DNA of 64,000 bases, taken from NCBI RefSeq assembly GCF_003403315.2, contig NZ_CP048407.1, positions 1,984,001 to 2,048,000 on the forward strand, in the 5' to 3' direction. Below, in pieces: positions 4,978 to 58,223 of the stretch. Under the pieces are notes generated by a model. It ran no database searches. It worked only from the letters and a program-made list of their open reading frames with translations, and had not been told where the DNA came from. This DNA is from Thermaerobacter sp. PB12/4term. Its GTDB lineage: Bacteria; Bacillota; Sulfobacillia; Thermaerobacterales; Thermaerobacteraceae. The translations under genes and the position numbers were made by a program. Within the stretch, counting starts at the first letter, position 1. Each line of letters begins with the position of its first letter.

Positions 4978-5324
4978 CAGGTGGACCCGTAGGCTTGCGC
5001 GTGGGTCAACGATTTCCCGGTCGAGCGCGTGATCCCGCGCGGCCGCAGGCGTCCCGCACGGGCGACGGCGCCGCGGCCGCGAGCGCACGTCGCGGTCGAA
5101 CACGGCACCCCCTGCCGGCATCCCCTGGCGCCCCGCCGTCGACCGGGCGCCGCACGCCCCGCGGTCGAACGCCGAACGCCCGCGTGCGGCACGCTCACGG
5201 CACCCCGCCGCGGCCACCGCGGCCCACCCCGTCACCGGCAGGGCACAACCGCCAGGTGCGCGCGGCACGGCCGCCCGGCGAGCACGGTAAGGCCGCGCCC
5301 GCCTCTTCCGGGAAATCCCGCGTC

Positions 5325-5534
5325 CCTTCCTTCTCCCATCCGGACTATCACCGTCGGCTCCGGCTTCTCACCGGAATCGGCCGCGCCCTTCACCGCACCG
5401 GCACCGGGGAGGCCTGCCTGCCTCGGCCCGGGCATGGGTGCTCCGGGCGCGGTTCGCGGGCTGGTGCGGTCGCGCCAGGACTGGCGCGCCGCCATCACCG
5501 CCGGTCGGGACTTCCACCCTGCCCCGAAGGAAGG
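5325..5534 (-). promoter_or_regulatory. FMN riboswitch (RFN element)
   Basis: On the minus strand the conserved 5' half reads CTTCGGGGCAGGGTGGAAG, then CCGACCGGCGGTGATGGC. The conserved 3' half contains GGTGAGAAGCCGGAGCCGAC and GATAGTCCGGATGGGAGAAG. The closing P1 stem pairs CCTTCCTTC with GAAGGAAGG (plus-strand arms 5526-5534 and 5325-5333). FMN binding should switch off the ribU transcript. About 350 bases separate the aptamer from the terminator at 4927-4977, which is unusually long; nothing else was recognised in that gap except two TTCGACCGCG repeats. Confidence 0.93.
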
Positions 5535-5786
5535 TCATGGATTGTGGAGGTGAGGACCGTCCGGACGAAAACCCACCTCTAAGATGACTATAACAGATCC
5601 GGCAAGACCTGAGATCCGCCAACCCGGGAAATACGGCGGCACCTGGAACGGCCGCAGGTGTCGCCCGCCATGCCCTCGACCTGCCCGCGCTGTTACAAGG
5701 CTCCGGTCTGCGGCCCCGCCGTTCCGGGCAGGTTATTGCTGCTGAACCGGGTGAACCGGAACGGACGAACCGGTGGGGTGATCGGG

Positions 5787-55840: not shown

Positions 55841-56132
55841 GGCGCTCTCCTCCTGCGGCGGCGTACTGTCCTGCGTCGTGCGTTCGTGGCCGCGCTGCGG
55901 ATCAACCCGTAACGGGACCGGATTGCCGGGATGTGGGATAGGTCGCGGTTAGGTTAGCACAGGCACGGCAGCGGGGACAAGGTCCTGGACGGGCGTGGCG
56001 ATCGCAGTCACGATCGAACGATTCTATAACCGCTGGGTCCCACGGGATGGGCCTCACGGGTTTCGGAACCCTTGGTCCTCGGTATGGGGCCGTTTTGGGC
56101 ACCGCGACGTCCCCGGCGCACGGCGAGGACCG

Positions 56133-56162
56133 TTGACGCAGGTTGCCGCCGCGTGGTAGAAA
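56133..56162 (+). promoter_or_regulatory. sigma-A promoter for the attenuator leader
   Basis: -35 TTGACG (56133-56138), 18-base spacer, -10 TAGAAA (56157-56162). It is about 140 bases before the leader peptide and about 500 before the MFS gene. Confidence 0.55.
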
Positions 56163-56303
56163 GTCAGGTGTACTTCCTGGCCGGGTTGGCATTTTGTGGC
56201 AAACTCCCGCTGGTAACCCGGCTCAGGCGATCCTCCGAGATGTCCAACGCCGCGGAGGTCCGGATGACCTCGCGGCCACCCTATCGGGGGGAGGGAGGCA
56301 CCC

Positions 56304-56387
56304 GTGCTCGCCATACCAAACCTGGACGCACCCGTCGCCCTGGTGGGCGGGACCGGCGGCCTCCCGCTGCCCCTCGCCCTCCAATGA
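56304..56387 (+). CDS. 27-residue leader peptide
   Basis: GTG start preceded by a very strong GGGGGGAGGGAGG, reading MLAIPNLDAPVALVGGTGG then LPLPLALQ-stop, with the less common codons ATA, CCA and AAC near the start. The TGA (56385-56387) touches the 5' arm of the terminator hairpin downstream. This arrangement fits ribosome-controlled attenuation of the transporter gene. Alternatively it is the stump of a Rossmann-type gene (ALVGGTGG). Confidence 0.5.
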   Translation: MLAIPNLDAPVALVGGTGGLPLPLALQ

Positions 56388-56422
56388 CGCCCCTCACGGG
56401 GTCAAGCGTGCGTTTTTGACCC
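56387..56422 (+). terminator. attenuator hairpins before the MFS gene
   Basis: Terminator form: ACGC-CCC(C)-TCAC-GGGG-(TCAA)-GCGT (56387-56409) followed by CGTTTTT (T5 at 56413-56417). Competing form: GGGTCAA (56399-56405) pairs with TTGACCC (56416-56422), sequestering both the 3' arm and the T-run. A ribosome stalled at the leader stop would cover the first arm. Confidence 0.5.
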
Positions 56423-56430
56423 ATGGGCCG

Positions 56431-56457
56431 TTAACCCATCGGTGACCCATCGGTTAA
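56431..56457. repeat. inverted/direct repeat upstream of the MFS gene
   Basis: TTAACC (56431-56436) and GGTTAA (56452-56457) form inverted arms around two direct ACCCATCGGT copies. Operator-like; the binding protein is unknown. Confidence 0.5.
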
Positions 56458-56657
56458 CCGGCAGCCGGGCGACCGGCAGGCGGTTCCCGCGCGGCTCGTC
56501 AGTCGCCGGCCGTCAGGGGTAACCCGCCCCGTTGGCCGCGCCACGCGCCGTGTTTTCTGAAGGCTTTGCCGGATTCACGGGGCCCGTTGCGCCGCGCCGG
56601 TCCCTCCCCGTCGCAGTGCGCGGGATCTTCATGCCAGACAAGGAGCGACGCATCCCG

Positions 56658-58223
56658 ATGAAGTCCATCGTCACCCTCGCCGCCCGGTTGCGGGCCGCGG
56701 CCGTCCCCACCGGCCTGCCGCCTTCCCTGTACTGGCTGGCCGCCGGTCAGGTGGTGGACTCCCTGGGCAGCGGACTGGTCTTCCCCCTGACCACCCTGTT
56801 CGTGGTGCAGGTGCTCGGACGGGACCTGACCTGGGCGGGATCGGTCCTGTTCTTCCATTCTCTGGCCGCCACTCTGGGTGCGGCCCTGGGCGGACGGCTC
56901 GCCGATGCCCACGGGCGCAAGCCGGTCCTTCTGGCGAGCCTGGCCGGAGCCGCCCTCTGCTCGCTGGTCATCGGCTGGCGCCAGGAGGCGGCCCTCTACG
57001 CCGCCGCCATGGCCGTCTTCGGCCTGGTCATCAGCCTGTTCCGCCCTGCGTCCCAGGCGCTGGTGAGCGACCTGGCACCGGGCCGGGAGCGGCAGGTCTT
57101 CGGGCTGATCTACATGGCCAGCAACGTGGGCGTCGCCGCGGGTGCCGCCCTGGGCGGTATCGTGGCCGCCTGGTCGTTCCGGGCGGTCTTCTGGGTCGAC
57201 GCGCTGACCTACGCCGTGTTTGCGCTGGTCCTGGCGAAGGCGGTCCCGGACCCCTATGGCCAGCTGCTGCGGGCCCGGCGGCGCCGGGCGAGGGCGGCGA
57301 CCGATCCGGCGGCCCCGCGGTCAAAGGGACACCAGGTGGGAGCCGGCGGCGCCGGTGGGGACGAACCGGCCCCCGCGGCAGGAACGCCGGCCGCAGCGGT
57401 GTCTGCAGCGCAGGTCCCGGCAGGGGGTGCCGGCGCGCCTGAGCCGGGTTCCGGCCCCGTGGTTGCGGCACCCTGGACGCCGGCACCTGCGGTGCAGGAC
57501 CCTGCCGCACGGCCCCATGGCGGGCGGCCATGGCGTCCCGCGGTTCCTCCCCGTAGCCCCCGGTCCCCCTGGGGGACACGCCTTGCGGTGTGGCACCGAC
57601 AAGGGCTTCTCACCGTGGTCCTCCTGGCCGTGGCCAGCGCCTTCCTGTTCTTCCCGTACGCGCAGCTCCACACGGCGCTGCCGGTGGACATGACGCGGCA
57701 CGGGTTCAGCGAGGCGGCCTACGGCCTGCTCTGGACCCTCAACGCGTTGCTGGTGGTGGTCTCGACGCCGGTGGCGTCGACCTGGGCGGACCGGCGCGGC
57801 TGGACGCTGGACGACATGCTCAAAGGCTCGGCGGCGCTGCATGGAGCCGGGTTCGCTCTGTTGCTGGTGACGGCCGTATGGCCGGCCTATGCCGCCTTCG
57901 CATTGGCCATGGTGGTGATCACCGCGGGCGAGGTCCTGCACGCCATCTCCTTCAACGCCGCCGTCGCCCGAGCCGCCCCGGAAGACCGCCGGGGATCCTA
58001 CCAGGGTCTGGCTGGGACCCTGGCCGGGGGCGCGTGGATGGTCGGACCGCTGGCCGGCGGGGCGATCGTCGACCGCTTCGGGATCCACGTCCTGTGGACC
58101 GTCACCGTGGCGGTGGCGCTGGCGGCGCTGGGGGTGTTCTGGCTGGCGGAAGCCGTCGAGAGCGCCCGACGCCGGGCTTCGGATGCGGCGGTGCCCACCG
58201 GCTCCATGCCCCAGGACGCCTGA
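56658..58223 (+). CDS. MFS efflux transporter
   Basis: About 521 residues, two six-helix halves. The motif A loop reads GGRLADAHGRKPVLL; the second-half equivalent is ASTWADRRGWTLDD. A loop of about 100 Ala/Pro/Gly residues links the halves and carries one 12-base motif copy (57359-57370). The ATG at 56658 follows AAGGAG by about 12 bases; the ATG at 56631 is an alternative, and the open frame to 56532 is not needed. The upstream leader/attenuator suggests inducible drug efflux. Confidence 0.9.
   Translation: MKSIVTLAARLRAAAVPTGLPPSLYWLAAGQVVDSLGSGLVFPLTTLFVVQVLGRDLTWAGSVLFFHSLAATLGAALGGRLADAHGRKPVLLASLAGAALCSLVIGWRQEAALYAAAMAVFGLVISLFRPASQALVSDLAPGRERQVFGLIYMASNVGVAAGAALGGIVAAWSFRAVFWVDALTYAVFALVLAKAVPDPYGQLLRARRRRARAATDPAAPRSKGHQVGAGGAGGDEPAPAAGTPAAAVSAAQVPAGGAGAPEPGSGPVVAAPWTPAPAVQDPAARPHGGRPWRPAVPPRSPRSPWGTRLAVWHRQGLLTVVLLAVASAFLFFPYAQLHTALPVDMTRHGFSEAAYGLLWTLNALLVVVSTPVASTWADRRGWTLDDMLKGSAALHGAGFALLLVTAVWPAYAAFALAMVVITAGEVLHAISFNAAVARAAPEDRRGSYQGLAGTLAGGAWMVGPLAGGAIVDRFGIHVLWTVTVAVALAALGVFWLAEAVESARRRASDAAVPTGSMPQDA

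Follow-up and report, generated by a model that had tools for sequence, protein, structure and literature searches.

Positions 56133-56657 of the window (the whole 64,000-nucleotide stretch of the Thermaerobacter sp. PB12/4term genome analysed here) are, in the reading that we favour with moderate confidence, a transcribed regulatory leader of the MFS transporter gene that follows, in which a self-locked upstream ORF (uORF) senses ribosome occupancy and a stalled ribosome raises the expression of the pump. Sequence comparison shows that the promoter, the uORF, its start and stop codons and a predicted helix between its Shine-Dalgarno sequence (SD) and its own 3' part, here called helix A, are conserved in the family. 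Ribosome traffic on this self-locking uORF probably controls the pump; we infer the control of the pump by uORF translation, together with its direction, the termination step and the inducer. Where the original prediction chose hairpins by eye, the relatives point to a different helix, which is conserved.

Distribution of the leader and the MFS gene

The relatives compared with the genome of the window (G000, G+C content 72%) were G001-G003, which belong to its genus, and G004, from a second genus of the family; the family search covered five genomes in all. The leaders found represent three independent lineages only, namely the window with G002, G001, and G004, and protein and DNA scans of genome contigs yielded no further relatives. 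Near matches to pieces of the leader elsewhere in the genus (L003, L005, L006 and L007) resemble unrelated GC-rich sequence and were discarded, and the more distant MFS loci of the class are without a comparable leader of SD, short ORF and promoter. The plasmid search gave distant MFS matches only and the phage search none, and no Rfam family matches the leader above its gathering score, the low-threshold matches being chance only.

The gene after the leader, which the original prediction named as an MFS efflux pump, is confirmed by profile searches and the comparison with G002 as encoding a 521-aa transporter of the Pfam MFS_1 family (56658-58223, + strand). G002 supports the ATG at 56658 as its start, for an indel of 1 nt in that genome, between 56631 and 56658, disrupts every in-frame start further upstream. 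The protein is closest to Tet-type and multidrug models, far below their cut-offs: the best Tet model gives 63 bits against a cut-off of 475, every Tet or multidrug NCBIfam model stays below cut-off, and only the broad Pfam models MFS_1 and MFS_1_like are matched. The G002 ortholog is 95% identical over its first 603 bases and has an alignable leader; the MFS of G001 is 82% identical in the N-terminal part and lies about 450 nt past the stop of the leader ORF; that of G004 is 63% identical. The pump was not found in G003 by the search of relatives.

Two observations concern the gene and its vicinity. A long Ala/Pro/Gly-rich central insert (57280-57580) separates the two halves of the transporter, and here the gene has its densest substitutions relative to G002. 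Between the leader and the MFS gene of G004 lies an RsgA-like GTPase frame, apparently degenerate (L048, 835-1445), while RsgA elsewhere in the other family genomes is only about 40% identical. Such a GTPase, ribosome-associated and placed in a pump operon, brings HflXr to mind, but the G004 frame looks broken.

Promoter and upstream ORF

The sigma-A promoter described before is indeed present (56133-56162, + strand), with the -35 element TTGACG at 56133-56138, an 18-nt spacer and TAGAAA at 56157-56162, and it carries an extended -10 TGN element in all four leader-bearing genomes (TGgTAGAAA in the window). Our promoter scanner missed it solely through requiring T at the last -10 position. The same promoter stands before the orthologous MFS gene in the relatives, as TTGACG-N18-TAGAAA in G001 and TTGACT-N18-TAGAAA in G004. 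On the whole, the search of five genomes finds the exact string TTGACN-N18-TAGAAA once each in G000, G001, G002 and G004, every time before the MFS leader, with zero occurrences in G003, the genome without the MFS pump. One-mismatch TTGAC-N18-TAGAAT sites with near-identical spacers recur in several of the five family genomes. The promoter string thus looks like a variant of the ordinary promoter of the genus, and the sites suggest an 18-nt-spacer promoter type with TAGAAT as the usual -10. Transcription would start near 56170. The 5' untranslated part of the leader (56170-56284, + strand) contains two GC-rich hairpins, which folding gives in the window and G002 only; the distance from the -10 element to the start codon is much shorter in G001 (57 nt) and G004 (73 nt).

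The very strong ribosome binding site is likewise borne out: the SD CGGGGGGAGGGAGGC lies at 56285-56299, an SD recurs at this place in the relatives, and both strands of the window together (128 kb) hold only two frames 15-50 codons long that have an SD of comparable class. The SD at 56285-56299 is followed by the 27-codon uORF MLAIPNLDAPVALVGGTGGLPLPLALQ (56304-56387, + strand), which runs from GTG at 56304-56306 to TGA at 56385-56387 as originally proposed, and which has counterparts of 27 codons in G002, 34 in G001 and 29 in G004. The G001 leader, otherwise mostly unalignable to the window, contains the SD GGGGAGGGAGGCAGCC, an ATG, the 34-codon frame and a TGA stop, and that of G004 the SD GGGGGGAGG, an ATG, 29 codons and a TAA stop in the same order of elements, so across the four leaders start and stop are exchanged for equivalents only (GTG/ATG, TGA/TAA). 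Within the genus, the length from start to stop differs by 21 nt, and the last 13 codons of the window and G001 align gap-free and in frame. The idea of a regulatory leader frame before the MFS pump stands in this respect, since promoter, SD, start, stop and position are shared by three diverged lineages.

Against G002, codons 3-6 of the uORF carry three substitutions, one altering an amino acid and two silent, and the 72 nt at 56322-56393 are free of substitutions against about 10% divergence in the remaining leader. The peptide is poorly conserved, the differences between the window and G001 being mostly nonsynonymous, and no arrest motif is evident in it.

Helix A

Helix A, which does not appear in the original prediction, joins the SD to the last third of the uORF and is seen in all four folded leaders. 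Its 5' arm is the SD itself (56285-56303, + strand; outer part 56285-56291, inner part 56293-56299, extension to 56303), and its 3' arm GGCGGCCTCCCGCTGCCCCTCG (56355-56376, + strand) ends 9 nt before the stop codon. Folding of the window pairs 56285-56291 with 56370-56376, 56293-56299 with 56359-56365, and 56302-56303 with 56355-56356. In the four leaders the arms form 89% standard pairs in register versus 50-58% when slid by 1-3 nt, figures that lean toward the helix because the arms were aligned by hand and fitted to it. Two-sided changes are found at two positions, one G-C pair becoming A-T in G004 and the other being A-T in G001 and C-G in G004; most pairs are invariant within the genus and covariation is thin.

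Relative to dinucleotide shuffles, the duplex energy has p values of 0.12 in the window, 0.018 in G002, 0.03 in G001 and <0.0005 in G004, those of the window and G002 being mutually non-independent. In the window alone the helix is not significant, as C-rich partners are available to any G-rich SD. Model folding at 60-75 °C gives its core a probability of about 0.7-1.0 in all four leaders, certain positions of G001 being lower, and helix A loses its dominance in G001 at 65 °C when more downstream sequence is folded. A covariance model made from the genus sequences alone has the G004 leader as its top match (E 0.073) among 38 over 12 loci, and this match spans from the SD to the exact stop, both ends being exact. 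The genus model did not find the G004 leader in a class-wide scan with stricter filters. Among its matches outside the genus (E 0.08-0.8), the two best resemble coding sequence by eye and were not retained. Taken together, helix A is well supported but not proven.

Terminators, competing folds and alternative explanations

The original prediction had the stop codon touch a T-run terminator (56385-56417, + strand, comprising the stop, a CCCC/GGGG core with weaker outer pairs, and TTTTT), which together with an anti-terminator would give ribosome-mediated transcription attenuation. A small stem does stand next to the stop, and its core CCCC (56390-56393)/GGGG (56398-56401) is unchanged in G002, where the loop alone differs. 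The T-run (56413-56417) begins 11 nt after the 4-bp G-C core (about 8 nt counting the weaker outer pairs), has changed from TTTTT to TCTTT in G002 and has no counterpart within 330 nt of the stop in G001, and a terminator scan gives nothing at the site. The anti-terminator GGGTCAA/TTGACCC (56399-56405/56416-56422) loses one pair in G002, and in the inverted repeat GTTAACC/GGTTAAC (56430-56436/56452-56458) one pair is broken and one weakened there. Conservation of these hairpins in relatives therefore fails except for the stem core in G002, and of all the elements first named, the fold models at 60-75 °C, the growth-temperature folds, retain none but the small stem at the stop; attenuation through the named terminator and anti-terminator is not upheld.

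Neither does the stretch between uORF and gene contain a conserved intrinsic terminator, i.e. a GC stem with a U-tract directly behind it, and for this reason the leader is not classed as a classical intrinsic-terminator attenuator. Sites resembling U-tract terminators are, in the scanned parts of the window (40 kb), as frequent as in shuffled sequence or rarer, which gives intrinsic attenuation no particular backing. Classical ribosome-mediated attenuation by an intrinsic terminator, either as first noted or through a rival helix B, would have a ribosome stalled on early codons block pairing of the 5' part of the uORF with the sequence immediately ahead of the T-run, and we consider it unlikely. 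Helix B, formed by GGACGCAC (56324-56331, + strand) and GTGCGTTT (56408-56415, + strand, overlapping the T-run) in the window and G002, speaks for it, since it crosses helix A and excludes it, is near-isoenergetic with it in the window and is preferred over it in G002 at 37 °C, where its one change, T to C at 56414, strengthens it by making a G-U pair G-C; so does a 6-bp helix in G004 that is flush with a T-run (TCGATG/CATCGA-TTTTT). However, helix B lies about 20 kcal/mol above helix A in G004, is not found in G001 and no longer belongs to the predicted optimum from 60 °C upward, the chance probability of a flush 6-bp helix is appreciable (p 0.01-0.24), and the T-runs altered or missing in the relatives, the background level of terminator-like sites and the hairpins broken in G002 all argue against this explanation.

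The search for other switches in the untranslated leader of about 270 nt between uORF and pump gene (56388-56657, + strand) found no conserved fold, and no conserved alternative partner with which the 3' arm of helix A could pair once released. Pairing of that arm with downstream sequence, called helix C, was rejected, with p values of 0.81, 0.73 and 0.99 and a low one (0.019) in G004 only. Also rejected was an erm-type translation attenuation, in which the leader would mask the SD of the MFS gene, since this SD has no consistent pairing partner in the window, G002 and G001.

The promoter and a translated short ORF might also act with no drug sensing at all, by making a small protein or by fixing translation of the pump or the stability of its mRNA at a constant low level. 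The conserved uORF with its start and stop and the lack of a conserved switch partner for helix A agree with this improbable alternative, but the lineages have almost wholly different peptides and yet retain the SD and the 3' arm at the nucleotide level, which points to the RNA rather than the product, and an ORF maintained for production would be throttled by helix A. We regard it as very improbable that a G-rich SD-like stretch and a fortuitous frame came together by chance in GC-rich intergenic DNA, or that they are what decay has left of the start of a lost gene. Open frames of 27 codons are common in 72% GC DNA and the p value of helix A in the window alone would allow it, but the same place, promoter, start, stop and pairing recur in G001 and G004, no relative was seen with the frame inside a longer gene, and the family search with the translation of the uORF stretch gave no match (query 56303-56383, one base out of frame).

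Proposed working of the leader

In the favoured reading of a leader that senses ribosome occupancy, the strong SD of the short uORF would be locked through pairing with the last third of the uORF, and ribosome loading on the nascent RNA would open helix A. When the ribosome finishes normally, or none is loaded, helix A would close and leave the long untranslated leader bare, most likely with an early end of transcription and low MFS expression. Rho-dependent termination would be the leading candidate for this off step, by elimination of helix B, helix C and the hiding of the MFS SD; the competing intrinsic fold, helix B, may be an off step in the window and G002. All five family genomes have Rho, and an excess of C over G peaks around the 3' end of the uORF in the four leaders, which reaches the 95th percentile or so only and speaks weakly for Rho, because complementarity to the G-rich SD also yields an excess of C. 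If a ribosome is held on the uORF, for instance by an export substrate of the pump that targets ribosomes, helix A would remain open and expression of the pump would rise. This step is drawn by analogy with the leaders of vmlR, mef(E) and tlrB, precedents for a uORF whose SD and start come to lie under a helix that ribosomes open.

If this is right, the sensing of translation by way of uORFs would extend to drug-pump-like genes in a deep-branching thermophilic family of Firmicutes. Tentatively, and with considerable doubt, the leader may further stand for a family-specific class in a GC-rich thermophile, in which the 3' end of the uORF locks the SD of that same uORF, ribosome occupancy is all-or-none, and the pump is gated via Rho and not by an intrinsic terminator. 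U-tract terminators appear scarce in Thermaerobacteraceae, and the leader, if so read correctly, would give a clear test of Rho-based working.

Comparison with known leaders

By analogy, the leader is best read as resembling those of mef(E), vmlR, tlrB or toiL, as a regulatory uORF that senses ribosome occupancy, and if the inference is right it would work like the mef(E), vmlR or toiL leaders. The upstream promoter and the translatable, SD-bearing short ORF of attenuators of the mef(E), vmlR, bmrB and tlrB type are present, and mutually exclusive folds involving the ORF are predicted as helices A and B in the window and G002, with B weak in G004 and absent in G001 and helix C not significant in three of the four leaders. 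As for Rho-dependent uORF leaders of the toiL and tnaC type, the family has Rho throughout and the C excess with the limit given above.

The mef(E)/mel leader of Streptococcus pneumoniae has 327 nt and its own promoter, and stalling on mef(E)L, which has 8 codons and an RLR arrest motif, disrupts R1/R2; its 15-bp stem is directly followed by five U (PMC4335068). The leader studied here is like it in preceding an MFS efflux gene and in being long, with its own promoter, a short ORF that has a consensus SD, and hairpins downstream of or around this ORF. Unlike mef(E)L, the ORF has 27-34 codons and no arrest motif seen, a conserved U-tract terminator is absent, and the SD is paired to the 3' end of the ORF. 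In the vmlR leader of Bacillus subtilis, the uORF lies within the first hairpin SL-1, an anti-antiterminator that is opened by the stalled ribosome (PMC9226507). Here the uORF likewise lies inside a predicted hairpin, helix A, whereas vmlR has an intrinsic terminator and antiterminator shown by experiment and controls an ABC-F factor.

In the tlrB (yxjB) leader of B. subtilis, a hairpin completed later would also block translation of the leader, so that timing is critical (PMC6851288). The likeness is that a hairpin formed afterwards covers the region of the leader peptide, which would have to be translated before the hairpin is complete. The tlrB leader differs in its NusA-dependent terminator, its 9-codon leader peptide with an RYR motif, and its 23S methyltransferase target. 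The toiL uORF of E. coli topAI senses ribosome-targeting antibiotics and has Rho-dependent termination, and no intrinsic terminator, as its off state (PMC12121999), and may thus serve as the uORF-plus-Rho precedent for the off step proposed here; unlike in our leader, where no such conserved pairing is seen, the toiL structure masks the SD of the gene that follows. In the bmrB leader of B. subtilis bmrCD, a regulatory frame with a GTG start contains alternative stem-loops within its coding region (PMC4191407). The window has the same arrangement of a GTG-start regulatory frame containing stem-loops before a transporter (multidrug for bmrB), while bmrB has its terminator inside a 53-codon frame and an ABC transporter as target.

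Further features of the region

The gene lysA lies upstream of the leader on the opposite strand. About 140 nt between lysA and the promoter (55990-56128 of the window) are absent from G002, and G001 has an additional open frame of 334 aa between lysA and the MFS leader (L019, 5182-6186, + strand). The sole Rfam match of the window is an FMN riboswitch (RF00050) at 5324-5535 on the - strand, which scores 67.6 bits against a gathering score of 66.2.
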